Positions 29,355-44,654 of a DNA stretch of 64,000 nucleotides are shown here, in pieces (the first letter of the stretch is position 1; each line of letters begins with the position of its first letter). A program made the position numbers and the translations under genes. The stretch spans positions 1,833,126 through 1,897,125 of the forward strand of contig NZ_CP012410.1 in the NCBI RefSeq assembly GCF_001274535.1, written 5' to 3'. This DNA comes from Leptotrichia sp. oral taxon 212. Lineage in GTDB: Bacteria > Fusobacteriota > Fusobacteriia > Fusobacteriales > Leptotrichiaceae. Below the pieces are notes generated by a model. It saw only the letters and a program-made list of their open reading frames with translations. It made no database searches and had not been told where the DNA came from.

Positions 29355-29739
29355 ATGTTTAAAGTTATTACCTTTTGACTTATGGGGCGGAAGTCCTTTC
29401 AATCAGGCAAATAGAATTTTTGAAGAAGCACCTGAAAAAAGGGTAATCGTTGCTGGGCTTAATTTACCAATGCTTATAGAAGCTTATTCTGAGAGATTGA
29501 CTGCAACATCAGCTCATGAAATCGCAAAGGCAATTCTTCCTTCAGCTAAAGAAGAAGTAAAAGTGCGTCCGGAAGAATTACAGCCTGAAGAAAAACAGCC
29601 TAAGGCAGCTGTTACTCTGACAACTGTAGGACTTGTTCTTGCTATGGTTGTACATACTTTATCAGTAGTTATAGTTCACCAGGCAGACCGTGCCGCTGAA
29701 CAGGGTAACTTTAAAGGTGTTGAATTTGGCACATGGTAG
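29355..29739 (+). pseudogene. mannose-family PTS relic: EIIA end joined to middle of EIIC
   Basis: The open frame begins without a start at about 29377 with DLWGGSPFNQANRIFEE and NLPMLIEAYSERL, clear motifs of the C-terminal half of a mannose-family EIIA. It then passes through a Glu/Pro linker directly into VLAMVVHTLSVVIVHQADRAAEQGNF, which is the middle of a sorbose/mannose-type EIIC. The EIIA N-terminus with its active-site His, the whole EIIB domain and the first half of EIIC are missing, so a deletion has fused the two. The frame ends at a TAG (29737-29739). Confidence 0.85.
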
Positions 29740-30110
29740 CTCTTGCATGTCAGGGACTACGTATTGCAATTCCTGCAGTTTTACTTATGTTCATTCCTTC
29801 AAGCACTATTCAAGGTGCACTTGGAATTTTACCTCCTTGGTTTACAGATGGTATGACAATAGGTGGATGATTTATTCTAGCAGTTGGATACGCAATGGTT
29901 ATTGACCTTATGGTGACAAAAGAAGTATGGCCTTTTTTCTTCCTTGGATTTGCACTTGCACCGTTAAAAGAGCTGACTTTGATAGCAACAGGAATTATAG
30001 GTGTATGTTTAGCTATTATTTATCTGAACCTTTCTAAAAAAGGTGGAAGCGGCAATAGTGGAGGTTCATCTTCCGATGATTCTTTAGGGGATATTTTGGA
30101 TAACTATTAG
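29733..30110 (+). pseudogene. EIIC (ManY-like) 3' half, frameshifted and with an internal TGA
   Basis: In the +1 frame relative to the preceding relic the EIIC continues: MVALACQGLRIAIPAVLLMF, PPWFTDGMTIGG, then TGA at 29868-29870, then FILAVGYAMVIDLMVTKEVW and FFLGFALAPLKELTLIATG. The TGA replaces what is normally a glycine codon (GGA), so it is a plain nonsense change. The native end with a Gly/Ser-rich tail and DILDNY is kept. A membrane sugar channel in life, now non-functional. Confidence 0.88.
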
Positions 30111-30125
30111 AAGGAGAAATTTGAA

Positions 30126-30591
30126 ATGGCAGAAAATAAAATAAAATTATCAAAAGCTGATCGTCGTAGTGTAATGCTGCGTTCTCAGTTTCTACAAGGT
30201 TCATGGAATTCTTCAGACAATTACAAAAGAAGCATCAATACTTGGAATGTTCGTAATGGGAATTCTTGTTCAGCGTTGGACTAATATTGATTTCTCAATA
30301 GTTATCTCAAAAGTTAAAATGGCTGACGGTGCCTTCATTAAATTTCCTGAAGGTGCTGTAAATGGTACTCAGCTACAGGAAGTACTGACTGCCATGAATA
30401 AAGGAGTAGCTCTTTCACCTGATAAGGTAACTACTCTACAAGATAACTTAAATGAGCTTGTACCTGGATTTGCAGCATTACTGCTTACTTTCCTGTGTAT
30501 GTGGCTTCTTAAGAAAAAAGTTAATCCTATCGCCATTATCTTTGGATTATTTGCAGTAGGTATTATAGGACATGTTGTTGGGATTTTCTAA
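30126..30591 (+). pseudogene. EIID (ManZ-like) with a large internal deletion
   Basis: The true start is kept (AGGAG, then ATG at 30126, MAENKIKLSKADRRSVMLRS and FLQGSWN), but near 30208 the sequence jumps, out of frame, to the C-terminal third (GILQTITKEASILGMFVMG..., ending at 30591). About 150 residues expected between these parts are gone. The remaining open stretch from 30247 is not a gene in its own right. Confidence 0.88.
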
Positions 30592-33322: not shown

Positions 33323-34042
33323 ATGAAAAAACCACTTATAGGAATAACTTCTTCCTATGAACATAACCCTGAATCAGAAAACGCTTATAAAACAAGTGTT
33401 TCTATAGATTATAGCCGTGCAGTCATGAATGCGGGAGGAATTCCTGTTGTTCTGCCTGTTCACGATAATATAGAAGTTATAAAAGAACAGATTTCACACC
33501 TTGACGGACTTCTTCTTTCAGGAGGAGTTGATTCTGACCCTGCTTTATATGGAGAAGACAGCTTACAGGAAATTGGAGTTATTTCACCTGAAAGGGATAA
33601 ATTTGAAATCATGCTGCTGGAAGAATATTTAAAAACTGGTAAGCCAATTTTAGCAATATGCCGTGGATTACAGCTTGTAAATATATATTTTGGTGGTACC
33701 CTTTATCAGGATATAAAATATTTGGATACTCAGATTCAGCACAAACAGAAATGGCACCTCTATTTACCTACCCACAATATCGATATTCTTGGAAAAGATA
33801 ATATTTTATACGAAATTTTTGGTGAAAAAACAAGGGTAAATTCCTTCCATCATCAGATGATAAAAGATTTAGCGGAAGGACTCACTCCTATTGCAAAATC
33901 TTCTGATGGTGTTATTGAAGCTCTTCAAAAAAAAGACCACCCTTTCTTTTATGCAACTCAGTGGCATCCGGAAATGATGGCTGTAAGAGGAAACGATGAA
34001 ATGAAGAAAATTTTCAACAAGTTTGTGGAAGCTTGTGAGTAA
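33323..34042 (+). CDS. gamma-glutamyl-gamma-aminobutyrate hydrolase family protein (class I glutamine amidotransferase, C26)
   Basis: Cysteine hydrolase of gamma-glutamyl bonds. The nucleophile is C113 in AICRGLQLVNIYFGG, and the His-Glu pair is in TQWHPEMM near the C-terminus; HHQMIKDLAEGL is also conserved in PuuD. 239 residues. No polyamine genes are near, so putrescine breakdown is unlikely; a gamma-D-Glu-diaminopimelate bond in murein peptides is a better guess from the neighbours. AAAGGAT precedes the ATG. Last gene of the operon, followed by a strong hairpin. Confidence 0.92.
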   Translation: MKKPLIGITSSYEHNPESENAYKTSVSIDYSRAVMNAGGIPVVLPVHDNIEVIKEQISHLDGLLLSGGVDSDPALYGEDSLQEIGVISPERDKFEIMLLEEYLKTGKPILAICRGLQLVNIYFGGTLYQDIKYLDTQIQHKQKWHLYLPTHNIDILGKDNILYEIFGEKTRVNSFHHQMIKDLAEGLTPIAKSSDGVIEALQKKDHPFFYATQWHPEMMAVRGNDEMKKIFNKFVEACE

Positions 34043-34045
34043 CAT

Positions 34046-34090
34046 AAAAATGATATTTATGATTTATAATATTTCATAAATATCATTTTT
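34046..34090. terminator. two-way terminator between convergent genes
   Basis: 17-bp perfect stem AAAAATGATATTTATGA / TCATAAATATCATTTTT with an 11-base loop. A and T runs on both sides serve the peptidase operon (plus) and the dhaL operon (minus). Confidence 0.92.
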
Positions 34091-34123
34091 TTAATAGCTT
34101 AACTATCACTCTTTATATAATTT

Positions 34124-34753
34124 CTATTTTTCTTTATAGTAATTATAGATTCCTTCAAATATCAGCTTGCCAACATAAGAGCCTCCGTCTACATGTCCTA
34201 TTGTTTTTTCTCCATGGTATGCTGCTCTTCCATGAACTGCCATCATATTTTTTGTTGCTTCACTTCCTTTTAACGCAGCTTCATATGTTTCTTTTAAAAT
34301 TTCCGATATTGTTTTCTCCTCATCTACATTTTTCTCAAAAACTTTTGTAGCAGGAGAAAATGAATCTAAAATCGTTTTCTCATTTTCTTTTGAGTTTGCT
34401 CTTTCTTTTAACTTGCTAATTCCGTTTTCCAATGCTATTTTCATCTCATTTTTATCCGCATCCTCTTTTCCTTTAAGGCTTCCACCTATTCCTAATAACC
34501 AAAATGAAATAATTGTTCCTAATGAAGAAGGAGCAGACTCATTAAAAACCATTCCCATCTTAAAAAATAATTTCCCTAAATCCCTTTCTTCAGAAGTTTC
34601 TAAATAATCTTTTAATCCAGAAAATCCTTGAACCATTGATATGCCTAAATCTCCATCTCCAAATTGGCTGTCTAAATCAAGCAAGTAATCTCTATTTTCT
34701 TTTACTAACTTGAATATATTTTCTGTAATTAATTTAATATCATCTCTATTCAT
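34124..34753 (-). CDS. dhaL: dihydroxyacetone kinase subunit DhaL-like
   Basis: ADP/ATP-binding half of a two-subunit keto-sugar kinase, 209 residues. The metal-binding loop is LDSQFGDGDLGISM (D28, D33, D35); the usual GDGDHG histidine is Leu (L36). The downstream DSFSPATKVFE, GSEATKNMMAVHGRAAYHGEKTIGHVDGG stretch is typical of DhaL. Last gene of the PTS-aldolase operon, 21 bases after dhaK. There is no DhaM phosphoryl-donor gene, so either ATP is used directly or an EIIA/HPr acts as donor; the sequence does not decide this. Confidence 0.88.
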   Translation of the reverse strand: MNRDDIKLITENIFKLVKENRDYLLDLDSQFGDGDLGISMVQGFSGLKDYLETSEERDLGKLFFKMGMVFNESAPSSLGTIISFWLLGIGGSLKGKEDADKNEMKIALENGISKLKERANSKENEKTILDSFSPATKVFEKNVDEEKTISEILKETYEAALKGSEATKNMMAVHGRAAYHGEKTIGHVDGGSYVGKLIFEGIYNYYKEK

Positions 34754-34774
34754 GACTGCTTCTCCTTCCTGAAA

Positions 34775-35782
34775 TTACTTATTTACATTAGTATAAAATG
34801 GTGTAATTGCTTCTTTCAATAATAATTTTTTAGTTTTCTCATTCAATTTAAAAATTGTTATTGATAATCCCCCCATTTCCATAGAAGTAGCAAATTCTCC
34901 TATATGTGGTTTTATTATTTTTACATTTTTTTCTTTTAAAATTTTATAAATTCTGTTATATACAATGTAAAGTTCTTCTAAAGGAGTTGCACCTAATCCG
35001 TTTACAGTTACAGAAACTTCATCTTCTGATTTCAGTGCCAATTCTTCATTTATCTTGGAAAATATTAAATCTGCTATTTCATCTGCTTTTAGCATGTCTC
35101 TTACTTCAATTCCCTGTTCTCCATGTATTCCCATACCTATCTCTATTTTATTTTCTTCTATACTGAAAGTAGGTTTTCCAACTTCAGGAACAATACATGG
35201 CGACAAAGCTACTCCCATCGTTTTTATATTTTCCAAAGCATGCTGAGTAATTTCAGCAACTTCTGACAATTCTAATCCCTCATCTGCAGCTGCTCCTGCG
35301 ATTTTATAGGCATACAACATTCCTGCTACGCCTCGTCTTGTATCTTTTTTTTCATACGGTGCTGAAGCAACATCATCTTTAACTAATACATTGGCAGTTT
35401 TTATATCCTCAAAATCAGCTAATTCACATGCCATACTAAAATTCATCTTGTCTCCCCCATAATTTCCATAAAGACATAAAACTCCTTTTCCAAAATCACA
35501 CGCTTTTATCATATCAAACATTTTCTGGGATGAGGGTGAAGCAAATACATTTCCTATTGCACATCCATCAAGCATTCCTTCTCCTACATATCCTAAAAAT
35601 GTTGGAAGATGTCCGCTTCCTCCTGCAGTAACAATTCCTACTTTATTTCTTTTAGGATTATCCTTTCTTACTAATACCCTGATATCGTCATTCAACAACT
35701 GTATTTTATCACTATGAGCAGCTACTATTCCTTCTATCATTTCTTTTACAAAATTTTCAGGTTCATTTATTATTTTCTTCAT
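34775..35782 (-). CDS. dhaK: dihydroxyacetone kinase subunit DhaK-like
   Basis: Binds the keto substrate covalently through a histidine. Substrate-pocket motifs are TAGGSGHLPTFLGYVGEGM (H58) and YGNYGGDKMNF (D111); the hemiaminal histidine is in GMGIHGEQGIEV (H220). 335 residues is a normal DhaK. GSGHLP differs from the more common GSGHEP and suggests a variant substrate such as a C4 keto-sugar rather than dihydroxyacetone (inference). AAAGGTG precedes the ATG; 16 bases separate it from the aldolase gene. Confidence 0.9.
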   Translation of the reverse strand: MKKIINEPENFVKEMIEGIVAAHSDKIQLLNDDIRVLVRKDNPKRNKVGIVTAGGSGHLPTFLGYVGEGMLDGCAIGNVFASPSSQKMFDMIKACDFGKGVLCLYGNYGGDKMNFSMACELADFEDIKTANVLVKDDVASAPYEKKDTRRGVAGMLYAYKIAGAAADEGLELSEVAEITQHALENIKTMGVALSPCIVPEVGKPTFSIEENKIEIGMGIHGEQGIEVRDMLKADEIADLIFSKINEELALKSEDEVSVTVNGLGATPLEELYIVYNRIYKILKEKNVKIIKPHIGEFATSMEMGGLSITIFKLNEKTKKLLLKEAITPFYTNVNK

Positions 35783-35798
35783 AATACAATCACCTTTC

Positions 35799-36458
35799 CT
35801 AGTTCTTTTCTAATTTTTCCGGATATTTCCAACTTTCCAGTTCTTCTGGAGAAAAACTGTCCGGTTCATTGCCTTTATTTATTAATAAAGTGTAGTAGTA
35901 AACTTCTGCCAGTTCTTCTACATACTGTGCTCTTAAAAAAGCTTCGTACATATCTGTGCCGCAGGCTACAACCCCATGTTTTTCAAGCAAAAATATATCT
36001 GCTCTTTTTACAGGCTCAATTACACTCTTAGCCAGTTCTACAGTTCCAGGTCTTGCATAGGGTGCTACCGGTACAACAGCATCTTTTAACCCGAATGTTG
36101 CAACCTCGTATATAATTGCCGGTATAGGTTTATTTAATACTGCAAAAGATGTTGCCATTTTTGAATGAGTATGAACAATTGCCATTATATCTGCCCTTGT
36201 TTTATAAACTTCTAAATGCATCATTGTTTCACTTGATGGTTTTCTGTTATTTTTTACTTCTATTAATTCACCATCTACCGTTAATACACAGATATCGTCT
36301 TCTGTCAATTCTTCTCTATTTACTCCTGATGGCGTTACTACTACGTATCCTGTCTCCTTATCTCTTATACTAAAATTTCCTGACTTATGTTTGCACAGGT
36401 CTAATCTTTGTCCATCTTGTGCTGCTTTTATAACTTCTCTTTTCAAATTTTCCAACAT
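35799..36458 (-). CDS. class II aldolase/adducin family protein (fuculose-phosphate aldolase type)
   Basis: Zinc aldolase or epimerase of the FucA/AraD/RhaD family, 219 residues. Expected residues are present: GNFSIRD, TPSGVN, SSETMMH (E77), the zinc pair HTHSK (H96, H98) and LEKHGVVACG (H161). FucA-like enzymes split ketose 1-phosphates to dihydroxyacetone phosphate and an aldehyde. Here a PTS permease lies upstream and a keto-sugar kinase downstream, so it is the central enzyme of the pathway. The exact substrate is unknown. Confidence 0.92.
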   Translation of the reverse strand: MLENLKREVIKAAQDGQRLDLCKHKSGNFSIRDKETGYVVVTPSGVNREELTEDDICVLTVDGELIEVKNNRKPSSETMMHLEVYKTRADIMAIVHTHSKMATSFAVLNKPIPAIIYEVATFGLKDAVVPVAPYARPGTVELAKSVIEPVKRADIFLLEKHGVVACGTDMYEAFLRAQYVEELAEVYYYTLLINKGNEPDSFSPEELESWKYPEKLEKN

Positions 36459-36483
36459 CTATATCACCTTCTATTAAAATTTA

Positions 36484-37818
36484 TTATCGATTTTGTTTTT
36501 TCATATTCTTTACAAATATATAGAACAATCCAAAAAATAATATTAATGCTATAATTCCTGGTATTTTAGCAGCTAGCCCATTTGCTACTGCCCATCTGAA
36601 AAACGGAGCTTCTACGCCAAAGTATGTTATCATTTGTCCAGCTGGTATTTCTATTGCTTTTGTTGCTTTTGCAAGTTCAGTTGCATATGGAGCGAAACTA
36701 CTGGAAACCAATAAATAAATTGGAGTATATAAAATGCTTAAAATTAACATTTTTAATAGATTCTTTTTTGAAACAATCATTGCTGGTACTACAACTACTA
36801 CATTTACTATTCCTGCCAATGGTAATACATTACTTATTCCCATTTTTGAAAGAACAACAGCTAAAAGCAATTCTATAGGAACTAATAATATGGCAACAAC
36901 CCATAATTCAGATTGTCCTGCCATAAATGGCCAGTCTAATCCAATATAGATTTCTCTATCTTTAAATTTATTTTTCATAAATTCTGATGCAGCATCTGCA
37001 ATTGGAGCAAGAGCTTGCATAAATAATTTAGCTACCATAGGAAATAATACTAGAGCTGTTCCTACTTTTATAGCCACATTTAATGTATCTTTTACAGAAT
37101 AACCTGCAAGAATTGCTATAAGTCCACCTATAATGAATCCCATAACGCTATTTTCTCCGAAAATTCCTATTTTATCTTTTAATTTATCTGCATTTGCATT
37201 TTCTTTTTTAAATAAAGGAATATAATCTAATAATTTGTTTACTGGTTCCATTATTACACATTGAAGCGTCATATAATGAGTACAAGTAACTCCTGGTATT
37301 CCTGTTATTTCCTGAGTTCTTTTTTGAGTAGCTTCTCCTATTTTTAATTCAACTATAACTTGAATTGCCGCTGCAACAAAACCTAATATAATATTTCCTG
37401 TTATTGCCGCCACCATTGTTGCAGTGAAAATTTTTCCCCATACATTCCATAAATCTACATTCAATATATCGGTCTGTTTAAAGATAAGCATTAGAAGATT
37501 AATACCTATCTGTAAAGGAAACATAAATAAAGCATAAGGCCATGCCCATGCAATTGCTGACATTGGTGACCATCCTACATCAATTATATTTAATTGAATT
37601 CCTGTCTTTTCTACAAAAGCTGAAGCGACAGGACTTATAGTATCAAACATAAAACCTAACACTACATTCATTCCAGTAAAAGCAACTCCTAATGTAAGCC
37701 CAGAAGCTATCGCTCTTTTAAATTTCATTTTTATTATTAATCCTATTATTATCATTATTACCGGTAAAAAGATTGCTGCTCCCAATCCTAAAATATAGTT
37801 TAAAATATTTCCAAACAT
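36484..37818 (-). CDS. PTS EIIC component, galactitol family
   Basis: Inner-membrane sugar or polyol transporter with about ten to twelve hydrophobic segments, 444 residues. Family motifs include FDTISPVASAFVEKTG, DVGWSPMSAIAWAWPYALFMFP, DLWNVWGKIFTATMVAAITGN and GIPGVTCTHYMTLQ, which match GatC. Start at 37818 (MFGNILNY) 7 bases after GGGAGG; an ATG seven codons earlier lacks a site. EIIB and EIIA are encoded upstream in the same operon. Substrate unknown; galactitol itself is doubtful because the tagatose-bisphosphate enzymes are absent. Confidence 0.93.
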   Translation of the reverse strand: MFGNILNYILGLGAAIFLPVIMIIIGLIIKMKFKRAIASGLTLGVAFTGMNVVLGFMFDTISPVASAFVEKTGIQLNIIDVGWSPMSAIAWAWPYALFMFPLQIGINLLMLIFKQTDILNVDLWNVWGKIFTATMVAAITGNIILGFVAAAIQVIVELKIGEATQKRTQEITGIPGVTCTHYMTLQCVIMEPVNKLLDYIPLFKKENANADKLKDKIGIFGENSVMGFIIGGLIAILAGYSVKDTLNVAIKVGTALVLFPMVAKLFMQALAPIADAASEFMKNKFKDREIYIGLDWPFMAGQSELWVVAILLVPIELLLAVVLSKMGISNVLPLAGIVNVVVVVPAMIVSKKNLLKMLILSILYTPIYLLVSSSFAPYATELAKATKAIEIPAGQMITYFGVEAPFFRWAVANGLAAKIPGIIALILFFGLFYIFVKNMKKQNR

Positions 37819-37847
37819 TTTATTACCTCCCAAAATCATCTATAATA

Positions 37848-38123
37848 TTATTTCAATAATTCTTTTAATTTCTCAAACTCTTCTGCCATTCCCATTCCAG
37901 TCAAAAATTTAATTCCATTTATCATTGGCTTGTCAAAAGTTTGAGAACCTGGAACGATTGTCACATATACATCAACTTGGTCTATTATGCTTTCAAGAGA
38001 TTTTATATCAACCGCTTCAACTGTTGCTTTTATCCCTTCATCTTCCAACATACTGTTAATTTTTGAAGCAACTGTTTGCGATGTTGCTACTCCTGATCCA
38101 CACGCTACAACTATTCTTTTCAT
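37848..38123 (-). CDS. PTS EIIB component, galactitol type
   Basis: 91-residue phosphocarrier. The phosphorylated cysteine is C8 in IVVACGSGVATSQTVASK. It accepts phosphate from EIIA and passes it to the substrate on EIIC. AGGAGG lies 6 bases before the ATG. It is 29 bases before EIIC. Confidence 0.94.
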   Translation of the reverse strand: MKRIVVACGSGVATSQTVASKINSMLEDEGIKATVEAVDIKSLESIIDQVDVYVTIVPGSQTFDKPMINGIKFLTGMGMAEEFEKLKELLK

Positions 38124-38150
38124 ATAAATTCCTCCTAATTTTATTATTTT

Positions 38151-38414
38151 TTATTCTCCAAAATTTGAATAAAATAACTTTTCCAATTCTTTTAATACTT
38201 CATTTTCATCTTCTCCATCTATTTCTATTTCAACTTTTGTACCATACTTTGCTCCAAGTTTTAAAAATCCTAAAACACTTTTATTCTCTACTTTATTGTC
38301 ACCTACTTTAAATATAGTTTTTGATTTATACTTTGATATTACTTTTATTATTTGTGAAATTGGTCTTGCATGTAATCCTGTTTTATTCTTAACTTCTAAA
38401 ATTTTACTTATCAT
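38151..38414 (-). CDS. operon-specific HPr-family phosphocarrier
   Basis: An 87-residue HPr paralogue. The phosphoryl-accepting histidine is H15 in NKTGLHARPIS, and the regulatory serine is kept at S46 in VENKSVLGFLKLGAKYG. Main HPr genes are usually with ptsI; none is here, so this one is probably devoted to the operon's own EIIA or to DhaKL. The ATG at 38414 is 8 bases after AAGGTG; a GTG three codons earlier overlaps that site. It has 5 bases or so between it and the EIIA stop. Confidence 0.92.
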   Translation of the reverse strand: MISKILEVKNKTGLHARPISQIIKVISKYKSKTIFKVGDNKVENKSVLGFLKLGAKYGTKVEIEIDGEDENEVLKELEKLFYSNFGE

Positions 38415-38428
38415 CGTAATCACCTTGT

Positions 38429-38884
38429 TTAAAAATTTTTACTCAATATTCTTAATATTTCTTCTTTATCTGATGCATTTCTAATAGCGTTATAAACTTC
38501 TTTCTGTTCCAGTAAAGACATTAATTTTGTTAATAGATTTACCTGTTCTTCCCCCTTTTGTACCAGTAACACAAATATTACTGATACTTCCAGATCATTT
38601 TCATCTAACCCCATATCCCTAAAAATAATTGGTTTTTTTAACTTAACTGTTACAATTCCTTCTTCATTAACATACTCTGGATTTGTGTGAGGAATCGCAA
38701 TCTTATATTCTCCAAAATCTAAACCTGTAGGGTATTTTTCTTCTCTTTCAATAATTGAATCATTAAATCCCTCCTTTACATATTTTTTTTCAAATAATAT
38801 TTTGGATATTTTAGAAAGAAAATCTTTTCTGTCATTTGCATCAAAATTTAAAAATATATTTTCCTCTTTAAAATAATTTTTCAT
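38429..38884 (-). CDS. PTS EIIA component (fructose/Ntr/galactitol type)
   Basis: 151 residues, PTS_EIIA type 2 fold. The active histidine is H66 in YKIAIPHTNPEYV; REEKYPTGLDFG upstream and VFVLLVQKGEEQVNLLTKLMSLL downstream are conserved. It takes phosphate from HPr and gives it to EIIB and probably to the PRD regulator. AAAGGA precedes the ATG. First structural gene after the regulator (13-base gap). Confidence 0.93.
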   Translation of the reverse strand: MKNYFKEENIFLNFDANDRKDFLSKISKILFEKKYVKEGFNDSIIEREEKYPTGLDFGEYKIAIPHTNPEYVNEEGIVTVKLKKPIIFRDMGLDENDLEVSVIFVLLVQKGEEQVNLLTKLMSLLEQKEVYNAIRNASDKEEILRILSKNF

Positions 38885-38897
38885 ATCTTATTCCTTT

Positions 38898-40955
38898 CTA
38901 CATATTGTCATTTTTTGAAAAATACTCTACTATTTTATTTTTATCTCTTGTTTTCATTATTTTAAGCATTTTATCTTTAAAAATTTTATTTATAATTTTG
39001 CTTACTTTATTAAGTTCCTTTTCTTTATCCTTTATAGCAAAAGTAAAAATATATTTTATTTTATTTCCATTAAGTTCAAGAATATTTTTTAATTCAATTA
39101 AAATTCCTGAAGTTTTAAACACATTAGCATCATTTCTTGCATGCGGTAAGATTATACCATTGTGTATTATCATATAGGATGTGTGATTCTTCAATATATC
39201 CAGAATACTCTTAGTATATGAGCTTGCTATATACTTTTTTTTCTCCAGAATATTGCATGTATACTTTATGGCATCTTCAATACTTTTAGCTTCATAGTCA
39301 AAAATAATATTCTGAGTCGTAATTATATTTTTATCTTCATTATCTTCGACAGTATCATTAATAATTCTTTCTTTCATTTTATTCTCAAGTTTTTCAATTA
39401 ATTTTTTTCTATTTTTTATTACTGTTTCCTCTTCAATAATTTGAATCAATTCAGTCATTAAAACCTTTTTATTATTAGGAGTAAAACCAACATCCAACAT
39501 TTTTTTCTTATCGTCCATTGTAAATATCGGATTAACTTTTAGTACTGGAATATTGTCTGAAATTTTATCCTCTATATCCACTGTAGTAATTATATAATTT
39601 ATATTTTTATTCTTCTGCAAAGTATCTTTGATTTTAAAATAGGGTGTTACCGAAACTATTTCTACATTAAACATTGAAGATATATTATCTACTAACATTT
39701 GTGAAATTCCATAACCTAATGTACTCACTACCACTACTCTTTTTACTTTTATATCATTACTTATAACTCTCTCCATTGAAGCCTGAAAGTGAAGCATTAA
39801 TAAAAATATTTCTTCATCTGGAATATCTTTTTTTAATATATTAATTAAAATATCTAATGATTCTTTTATTAAGTAGAATAAATGATTTTTTGTAAATTTT
39901 AAATCCTGTATAAATTTTTCATTTAGAGCATAACCATTTTTCACTCTATAAAATAAAGGTTTTAAATGTTGTCTTAAATATTCAAATAACAGTTCATCCT
40001 TTGATATATTCACATTCAATCTGCTATTTATGTTTTCAATCAAATTTTTAGCTAGAATGTCTATATCTATCCAATTTTCATAAAATTGAGAAACTTTATT
40101 ATAAGAAGTTATCCCAACTATCAAATCAGTTATTATAAAAATATCCTGCTCATTAAATATTTCATCCAATTTTTGTTTTTTGATTTCCTCTTTTATTATC
40201 CTGTATTCATCCCAATCCTTTATTATTGAGCCATCAACACATATAAAATTATTAATTTCATCATGAAAAGTTTTAGATTGTAACAAAATAATATATGAAA
40301 TTAATGTTTTATAATTCTCATCTGTTGCTGAAAATTTTAAATCAGTTAAGATTTTTTCTAATAAATTACTTAAAAAATCTACTTTCCTTATATTTAAATT
40401 TTCTTCAAAAATTTCTTCTATTTTTAGTCTATAATTTGTTTTATTTTCTTTTTTCAGTTCCTTTAAGCATTCAGATATTGTTTCAACTCTATATTTTATT
40501 AAGTTTGATATTTTCCCTTCAAGTATTATTCCTTTTTTAGTACTTAAAAGAATATCTTTTTCTTTAAATTCTTTTTTTATAATATTCAAATCATTATTAA
40601 TAGTAATTCGTGATGTATCGAATTTATTCATTAAATTTGATATATTGGTTTTTTTTGCAGATGTAATCAATAGTAATTTTATGAGTTTTTTTCTTTTTTC
40701 AATATCTATAGGTTCTGCCTCTTTAACCATAATCTTGATTTTATTTATTTTATTATTACTATCTAACTTAAATGTTCCTGATTTGTTTCTATATATAGGT
40801 TTAATGTTAAATATTGACAAAACAAAATTGATTTTGTCAATATCATATCTTACCATTCTCTCAGAAATATCAAATTTTTCTTTTAATTTCTTAATCGATA
40901 CCTCTTCTCCAGAAGAAAAAATATCTAACATTTTTATTTCTCTGTTATTTAACAT
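38898..40955 (-). CDS. PRD-containing transcriptional activator (BglG/MtlR type)
   Basis: 685-residue PTS-controlled regulator. Order of domains: an N-terminal helix-turn-helix (SGEEVSIKKLKEKFDISERMVRYDIDKIN) and a second HTH (NLMNKFDTSRITINNDLNII), two PRDs (about 180-400), an EIIB-Gat-like domain (VVVVSTLGYGISQMLVDNI, about 410-500) and a C-terminal EIIA-like domain with an intact site histidine (GIILPHARND). The EIIB-like cysteine is replaced by Ser/Thr (STLGYG), so that domain probably senses rather than carries phosphate. It heads the operon it should control. The start follows AAGGAG. Confidence 0.92.
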   Translation of the reverse strand: MLNNREIKMLDIFSSGEEVSIKKLKEKFDISERMVRYDIDKINFVLSIFNIKPIYRNKSGTFKLDSNNKINKIKIMVKEAEPIDIEKRKKLIKLLLITSAKKTNISNLMNKFDTSRITINNDLNIIKKEFKEKDILLSTKKGIILEGKISNLIKYRVETISECLKELKKENKTNYRLKIEEIFEENLNIRKVDFLSNLLEKILTDLKFSATDENYKTLISYIILLQSKTFHDEINNFICVDGSIIKDWDEYRIIKEEIKKQKLDEIFNEQDIFIITDLIVGITSYNKVSQFYENWIDIDILAKNLIENINSRLNVNISKDELLFEYLRQHLKPLFYRVKNGYALNEKFIQDLKFTKNHLFYLIKESLDILINILKKDIPDEEIFLLMLHFQASMERVISNDIKVKRVVVVSTLGYGISQMLVDNISSMFNVEIVSVTPYFKIKDTLQKNKNINYIITTVDIEDKISDNIPVLKVNPIFTMDDKKKMLDVGFTPNNKKVLMTELIQIIEEETVIKNRKKLIEKLENKMKERIINDTVEDNEDKNIITTQNIIFDYEAKSIEDAIKYTCNILEKKKYIASSYTKSILDILKNHTSYMIIHNGIILPHARNDANVFKTSGILIELKNILELNGNKIKYIFTFAIKDKEKELNKVSKIINKIFKDKMLKIMKTRDKNKIVEYFSKNDNM

Positions 40956-44017: not shown

Positions 44018-44654
44018 GTGTACTAAATTTTGTGTAAACCTCTAAATAATGTATGATAAAATAACTATATAGTATTTGGAGGTTTTTATTATGGGTAAAA
44101 AGAAAATAGATAAGGAAATATTCAAGGCTTTAATTGAAGATTATGGAATTAAGGATACAGATGATATTAAAGATATGCTGAAGGATTTAATGTCAAGCAC
44201 AATTCAGACTATACTGGAAACTGAAATAGAACATGAGCCGGGATATGCCAAGAATTCTGTATCAGAAAAGAACACATCAATCTCAAGGAACGGATATTCT
44301 AAAAAGACTGTAAGACATTAATCTGGATATTCCAAAGGATAGGAATGCTGAATTCGAACCTCAAATGATAAGAAAGCTGATATATACAACAAATCCAATA
44401 GAAAGCCTGAACAGACAGTTAAGAAAATACACAAAGACAAAATCACTGTATCCGACAGATGAAGCATTAATGAAATCAGTATATTTAAGCTTAAAGGAAG
44501 CAACAAAGAAATGGACTGGAAGAATATCAGGCTGGGGAGAAATATATTCCCAGTTAAGCATATATTTTGAAGGAAGAATTTAAAAAACAGGATGATAAAA
44601 TTTACCATCCTGTACCATATATTATATTTTGAGTTTACACAAAATTATATACAC
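44018..44654 (+). mobile_element. internally deleted IS256-family insertion sequence
   Basis: 637 bases between 22-base imperfect terminal inverted repeats: GTGTACTAAATTTTGTGTAA at 44018 and its partner ending at 44654 (GTTTACACAAAATTATATAC...). Between them are the two ends of a Mutator/IS256-type transposase with the middle missing. No matching 8-9 base target duplication is seen at the flanks (AAGCGGGT and TCTCGAAT). It could be moved only by a transposase supplied elsewhere. Confidence 0.85.
44091..44583 (+). pseudogene. IS256-family transposase, internal deletion
   Basis: GGAGG then ATG at 44091 start MGKKKIDKEIFKALIEDYG and run to RNGYSKKTVRH, where a stop appears at 44319. The last part, from about 44352, is the C-terminus (RKLIYTTNPIESLNRQLRKY, then KWTGRISGWGEIYSQL). 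The TTNPIESLN/R motif identifies IS256-type enzymes. The DDE catalytic middle (about 250 residues) is deleted. Confidence 0.9.

Follow-up and report, generated by a model that had tools for sequence, protein, structure and literature searches.

A 64,000-nucleotide stretch of the genome of Leptotrichia sp. oral taxon 212 (contig NZ_CP012410.1, positions 1,833,126 to 1,897,125), here called the window, carries at positions 34124-40955 eight open reading frames (ORFs), all on the minus strand. In order of transcription these encode a regulator, the EIIA, HPr, EIIB and EIIC components of a sugar phosphotransferase system (PTS), an aldolase, and the kinase subunits DhaK and DhaL. The original prediction had described an eight-gene operon here, and this was borne out: each ORF was found in its given place, strand and order, and Pfam and NCBIfam profile scans of the operon ORFs supported every family assignment. 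The features are as follows.

38898-40955, minus strand: PRD-type regulator of 685 amino acids, with N-terminal helix-turn-helix, PRD and C-terminal EIIA-2 domains (Pfam HTH_11, PRD, PTS_EIIA_2)
38429-38884, minus strand: EIIA of the Gat/fructose type, with His66 in IPHTNP (PF00359, PRK09665; aligned with E. coli GatA)
38151-38414, minus strand: dedicated HPr of 87 amino acids, with H15 and S46 (TIGR01003, 83.9 bits against a cut-off of 47.9)
37848-38123, minus strand: EIIB of the Gat type, with Cys8 (PF02302, PRK10310; aligned with E. coli GatB)
36484-37818, minus strand: EIIC of the Gat family (PF03611, TIGR00827; in an EIIC clade of 13 rows with support 100/100)
35799-36458, minus strand: class II aldolase of 219 amino acids (zinc, FucA/AraD superfamily; PF00596)
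34775-35782, minus strand: DhaK-type kinase subunit, GHLP subclass (PF02733, Dak1)
34124-34753, minus strand: DhaL-type nucleotide-binding subunit, GDGDLG subclass (PF02734, Dak2)
34040-34123, minus strand: terminator-like hairpin 3' of dhaL with a 17-bp A/T-rich stem, shared with a convergent plus-strand gene

The genes are tightly packed (8-27 nt), with intergenic gaps of 13, 14, 27, 8, 25, 16 and 21 nt when the starts of the ORF list are used for every gene except HPr, which is counted from its ATG. This ATG, at 38414, is the more likely HPr start; the ORF list gives a GTG at 38423, and the shorter protein of 87 amino acids has a numbering that gives exactly H15 and S46. The EIIC more likely begins at 37818 than at the listed 37839. 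The alternative start is preceded by GGGAGG, and the homologue in a second genome of the phylum (G077) likewise begins MFGN.

Alignment with E. coli GatA and GatB showed that the phosphorelay residues are all kept, namely His66 of EIIA, Cys8 of EIIB and His15 and Ser46 of HPr. The best NCBIfam matches of EIIA and EIIB are GatA-like and GatB-like, and with the EIIC-GAT domain, the EIIA-2 histidine and the EIIB cysteine all present the transporter belongs to the Gat-family PTSs. Several specific (equivalog or subfamily) models were nevertheless matched well under their cut-offs: EIIC scored 301 bits with the GatC model (cut-off 542), the aldolase 130 bits with the FucA model (cut-off 400), DhaK 379 bits (378.5) with the DhaK model (cut-off 406) and DhaL 133 bits with the DhaL model (cut-off 138). 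On these scores the operon does not qualify as a textbook case of gat, fuc or dha. With E. coli gat as the comparison, neither the operon nor its flanking ORFs include the galactitol markers GatD and GatY/GatZ.

A profile search of the 2.44 Mb one-contig genome found one enzyme I over the cut-off and three HPr genes. The operon copy, which adjoins the EIIA gene, is therefore additional to the general HPr; as a member of the HPr family that retains His15 and lies inside a PTS operon, it has the features of a dedicated HPr. Such a gene is present at three of the 13 loci of the EIIC clade (the window, G077 and a Klebsiella plasmid), so that the operon's own HPr, with H15 and S46 kept as originally noted, is not a one-off. 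It is absent from the operons of a third genome of the phylum (G092), Clostridium guangxiense and C. akagii, all of which keep DhaKL, and its absence from most operons marks it as an accessory component. The G077 operon HPr shares 29% identity with the general HPr of the window genome, 38% with its third HPr and 29% with the plasmid HPr; these values suggest possible separate recruitment of the two operon HPrs. The simplest reading is that HPr would serve as an optional dedicated carrier, feeding EIIA independently of the general HPr much as FPr does in fructose systems. Since Ser46 is kept, control by HPr kinase could still operate.

The aldolase keeps, in alignment, the zinc ligands (E, H, H, H), the equivalent of the catalytic Tyr113 and the phosphate loop. 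It has TPSG and a glutamate where AraD has the lysine of KPSG and an aspartate metal ligand. These residues rule out an L-ribulose-5-phosphate 4-epimerase (AraD) and are those of a class II FucA-type enzyme, although the FucA equivalog cut-off is not reached. The protein falls in a clade of 23 rows (support 99/97 in a first tree and 100/98 in a second) that is separate from AraD and from FucA with E. coli Ald2; the second tree omits L161 and the long branches L014 and YgbL/OtnC, all present in the first. Some conserved catalytic residues are missing from L160 and L161, which may not be aldolases. Members of the clade adjoin MtnA at five loci, together with MtnK at four of them (L048, L157, L158 and L168) and with MtnA only at L167. 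At L157, in genome G421, the order is MtnK-MtnA-EIIC-aldolase-AP_endonuc_2; this EIIC is in the same clade as that of the window, has no EIIB or EIIA adjacent to it and may import a free sugar. In the DHAP shunt (MtnK-MtnA-Ald2) of E. coli ATCC 25922, MtnK and MtnA produce a ketose-1-phosphate, which a class II aldolase cuts to dihydroxyacetone phosphate (DHAP) and an aldehyde (PMC10986504). The shunt locus of E. coli S88 is without a PTS or DhaKL. E. coli Ald2 lies on the FucA branch, and MtnK and MtnA are absent from the window operon and present only at the loci of relatives.

The operon DhaK is the sole DhaK that the profile search found in the genome. Its motif GHLP is present in all nine DhaKs of the operon group (window, G077, G092, L043, L044, L112, L048, L156A and L233), whereas the 12 DhaM-linked DhaKs all have GHEP. 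The equivalents of His56, Asp109 and His218 are kept throughout the operon group. The split between the two groups had support of 100/99 in a first DhaK tree and 91/86 in a second with four more rows, in which the group of L156B and L222 shifts to the DhaM-linked side; the Sebaldella-type member of this group neighbours RpiB and AP_endonuc_2 genes. A parallel difference is seen in DhaL, with GDxDLG in nine of nine operon-type proteins as against GDxDHG in every DhaM-linked DhaL examined (10/10; the DhaLs of the DhaKLM loci L221 and L223 were not recovered, hence ten and not twelve, and rows L125, L129, L132 and L133 duplicate genomes already counted). The DhaLs without an adjacent DhaM at L156B, L224, L225 and the second pair of L233 nonetheless have GDGDHG, so the histidine alone is no proof of dependence on DhaM. 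In the alignment, the ATP-dependent kinase of Citrobacter has the signature GDGDTG. Compared with E. coli DhaKLM, the window operon thus has the same DhaK and DhaL families and the same three conserved residues but has no adjacent DhaM, and GHLP and GDxDLG stand in place of GHEP and GDxDHG. Neither of the marks of a PTS-dependent DhaKLM, an adjacent DhaM and GDxDHG in DhaL, was found at the operon locus. Judged by these motifs, the operon-type DhaKL is most likely independent of DhaM, with ATP as donor.

An orphan DhaM-like EIIA is encoded upstream of rimM-trmD (G000:C1:706030-706443), about 1.16 Mb from the operon. The view that DhaM is wholly absent from the genome was therefore wrong, and strictly speaking the genome does not lack a donor of the DhaM type. 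In the family, 31 of 33 genomes have a match to the DhaM model (five of them over the cut-off) and just seven of the 33 have DhaK, which argues that the orphan is not a dedicated partner of DhaK.

A close aldolase (at least 65% identity) was found in three of 98 genomes of the phylum, the window genome (G000), G077 with all eight genes and G092 with seven, HPr being the one missing. Scans of genome contigs found EIIA, EIIB, EIIC, the aldolase, DhaK and DhaL in C. guangxiense and C. akagii, and EIIB through DhaL with a HAD phosphatase in a Tissierellia metagenome-assembled genome (MAG) whose contig starts at EIIB. Across the core EIIB-EIIC-aldolase-DhaK-DhaL of G092, the two clostridia and this MAG, identities to the window are 70-82% for EIIB, 65-68% for EIIC, 63-68% for the aldolase and 56-69% for DhaK. 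A Peptoniphilaceae MAG and Clostridiaceae M8S5 have the PTS and aldolase with no DhaKL at the locus. In samples of 391 and 398 genomes, with the Bacilli sampled non-systematically, aldolases above the set thresholds were present in at least eight and at least four genomes respectively, G098 being common to both. DhaKL is present at eight of the 13 loci of the EIIC clade and a window-clade aldolase at 11; at two (Listeria and Enterococcus faecalis) PfkB occurs with a distant aldolase. A different gene set, at the Sebaldella-type loci L224 and L226, comprises a PRD regulator, EIIA, a fructose-bisphosphate-type aldolase, an alcohol dehydrogenase, AP_endonuc_2, a cupin, RpiB, DhaK and DhaL (Pfam on L224 only), and may be a tetrulose pathway.

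The module is also found on plasmids. Bacteria from the gut and from soil carry related gene sets, as do plasmids of hospital bacteria. The aldolase was matched by 128 plasmid records, and the best 25 of these 128 are all enterobacterial with 54.4-54.8% identity. The plasmid set is 54% identical to the window in the aldolase, 52% in DhaK and 48% in EIIC. In E. coli, eight of 5426 genomes match, six of them with at least 80% coverage, and every match is plasmid-borne. The three records examined among the best 25 (L233, L238 and L239) have the order EIIA-EIIB-EIIC-regulator-aldolase-DhaK-DhaL-HPr between ilvA and ilvY. The cluster as seen on the Klebsiella pneumoniae IncN plasmid pC962_2 (CP067444, L233) and on K. 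michiganensis pKOXM1B thus has the same eight genes as the window, including HPr, but in another order with HPr last; the regulator is of the PRD/BglG type and a second dhaL-dhaK pair follows. A literature search found no characterisation of this cluster. The eight genes travel with ilvA, ilvY and ilvC on conjugative Klebsiella plasmids and on E. coli plasmids, with copies of IS26 flanking L238 and of the IS5 family flanking L239, and the whole is apparently a chromosomal segment.

Two further known arrangements resemble that of the window. The Listeria operon lmo2093-lmo2099 and a plasmid operon of E. faecalis combine a regulator, EIIA and EIIB with a kinase, a class II aldolase and an EIIC from the clade of the window EIIC, but a PfkB/1-phosphofructokinase-type kinase takes the place of DhaKL, no HPr is annotated and the aldolase lies far outside the window clade. 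On this last ground, seen in the second tree, orthology between lmo2094 and the window aldolase was rejected. Kinase followed by aldolase would there lead to the same two triose phosphates. In one report, lmo2093-2099 is considered a likely galactitol pathway whose aldolase may act on a tagatose bisphosphate (PMC3721983). The second parallel is liver fructolysis, and the window differs from it in having two kinase subunits, PTS entry in place of ketohexokinase and a class II aldolase. In the liver the route runs through ketohexokinase, aldolase B and the triokinase TKFC, a DhaK-DhaL protein that acts downstream of the ketose-1-phosphate aldolase. TKFC phosphorylates both D-glyceraldehyde and dihydroxyacetone (DHA) (PMC6429413).

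The window operon may encode a pathway with the logic of liver fructolysis. A ketose would be imported and phosphorylated, most likely at C1, by the chain from enzyme I through HPr (general or private), EIIA and EIIB to EIIC. The zinc aldolase would then cleave the ketose-1-phosphate to DHAP and a free aldehyde, and DhaKL, probably with ATP, would phosphorylate the aldehyde. With a ketohexose as the sugar, this product would be glyceraldehyde, which is left free by cleavage of a ketohexose-1-phosphate and so needs a kinase; DhaKL would rescue it as glyceraldehyde-3-phosphate and both halves would enter glycolysis. The FucA-like residues and the MtnK-MtnA neighbours favour glyceraldehyde over DHA as the kinase substrate. 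Release of an unphosphorylated carbonyl compound by the aldolase for the kinase to act on, close to an option originally raised (an unphosphorylated ketone), is the best reading. This PTS ketose-1-phosphate pathway is put forward tentatively, at somewhat short of an even chance. As to the sugar, D-allulose (D-psicose) is a guess, made because MtnK-MtnA, beside relatives of the aldolase, make ketose-1-phosphates of D-ribulose configuration. The fuller proposal remains doubtful: a PTS with its own HPr for a rare ketohexose-1-phosphate, possibly D-allulose-1-phosphate, joined to a FucA-type aldolase and an ATP-dependent GHLP/GDxDLG glyceraldehyde kinase, and spread among Fusobacteriota, Clostridia and enterobacterial conjugative plasmids.

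The distribution of the kinases speaks for this pathway. Six of the seven genomes with PTS, aldolase and DhaKL (G000, G077, G092, G098, G099, G100 and G219) have no DhaM-type DhaK, and DhaKLM is encoded elsewhere in all three genomes that combine PTS gene(s) and aldolase without an operon DhaKL (G102, G103 and G421). This complementarity fits a triose product without distinguishing DHA from glyceraldehyde, and a one-sided Fisher test calculated by hand gives 0.033 on ten genomes that were chosen by homology and are not independent. Several other findings weigh against the ketose-1-phosphate pathway. One DhaK of G219 (L156B) switches side between the two DhaK trees, and the neighbouring DhaK group with RpiB and AP_endonuc_2 in Sebaldella-type genomes points to tetrulose rather than triose kinases. 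The loci L042 and L050 have the PTS and aldolase without DhaKL in the operon, and the aldolases of G092 and L050 carry phenylalanine for the catalytic tyrosine. Close relatives of the aldolase also lie beside a CoA-transferase, a phosphoglucomutase-like protein and a polyol PTS with a true AraD, so the clade is not of uniform function. E. coli Ald2 clusters with FucA and not within the clade, which makes the link to MtnK-MtnA one of gene neighbourhood; and the MtnK-MtnA locus L048 also holds DhaKL, which would be odd if its pathway acts on 5-deoxyribose.

The alternative that survives best, although it seems rather unlikely, is that DhaKL phosphorylates a C4 keto-sugar or a branched C5 one (a tetrulose, or an apulose-like sugar) and the aldolase cuts the product, EIIC being mainly an importer or serving a related sugar. 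Pairs of a DhaK-type kinase and a class II aldolase serve apulose, and the operon DhaK scores higher with PRK14479 (dihydroxyacetone kinase family protein, 423.8 bits) than with the DhaK model (378.5 bits). The other DhaK group beside RpiB and AP_endonuc_2 and the alphaproteobacterial kin that adjoin ABC sugar transporters are in agreement with this. The imported sugar, however, should already carry a phosphate since the EIIA and EIIB sites are intact and the genes tightly packed, the operon has no isomerase or dehydrogenase, and L042 and L050 show that PTS and aldolase occur without DhaKL.

Gat-type PTSs phosphorylate terminal CH2OH groups, and phosphorylation of the far end of the sugar (C6, or C5 of a pentulose) would let the aldolase free DHA and an aldehyde phosphate, with DhaKL acting on the DHA. 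This is the simplest account of a DHA-kinase homologue and suits the canonical DhaKLM of genomes without operon DhaKL. It is, all the same, quite unlikely, because the aldolase is FucA-like and not AraD-like where enzymes of ketose-1-phosphates and ketose-5-phosphates differ, the MtnK-MtnA beside clade members produce 1-phosphates and the DhaK pocket motifs are unlike those of all 12 DhaM-linked DhaKs examined. An ordinary galactitol/tagatose-type or L-fuculose-type operon, mis-sorted here, is very improbable. The published reading of the Listeria operon as galactitol degradation (PMC3721983) and the best matches, of EIIA, EIIB and EIIC to Gat models and of the aldolase to fuculose-phosphate aldolase, speak for it, but the specific models were all matched far below their cut-offs and GatD, GatYZ and FucIK are absent from the operon. 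The least credible proposal, raised in the original prediction, is that the operon HPr replaces DhaM as phosphoryl donor of DhaKL, or else feeds the orphan DhaM-like protein to give a PEP-driven kinase: despite the presence of that orphan and the placing of HPr, beside dhaL, as the last gene of the plasmid operon, DhaKL is kept without HPr in G092, C. guangxiense and C. akagii, the operon DhaL has GDxDLG, the orphan's distribution does not follow that of DhaK (31 as against seven of 33 genomes), and DhaL is fed by the EIIA domain of known DhaM proteins rather than by HPr.

Like the original prediction, which gave the operon no known substrate, a search of the literature by title and abstract, with most subscription journals outside its coverage, found no description of the operon or its substrate. 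The system is a variant of PTS-based sugar breakdown without prior characterisation, in which a triokinase step is plausible. If the ketose-1-phosphate pathway is right, a function would be assigned to a recurrent sugar module, and a subclass of DhaKL would be defined that is now annotated as dihydroxyacetone kinase although its motifs differ. Since clinical enterobacteria have the module on conjugative plasmids, the possibility would then arise that a carbon source favours plasmid carriage. The substrate question would also become open to direct testing through a single aldolase and a single kinase.

The regulator has homologues at the same locus position with 78% identity in G077 and 35% in G092. 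Part of it resembles EIIB (VVVVSTLGYGISQML), apparently with serine at the position where EIIB normally has cysteine. A promoter scan gave 34 promoter-like sites, fewer than the 48 of shuffled sequence. The A/T-rich hairpin after dhaL (-19.3 kcal/mol, z -4.8, with none of 200 shuffles equally stable) is consistent with a terminator. On one side the operon is flanked by genes for an S66 peptidase, an M19 dipeptidase and a glutamine-amidotransferase-like protein, on the other by one for a YbaK-type deacylase, all of which look unrelated to it. Elsewhere in the window, a mannose-type PTS has left an EIIA-man fragment and some short, disrupted ORFs at 29374-30591, and at 44076-44608 there are fragments whose translations look transposase-like by eye.

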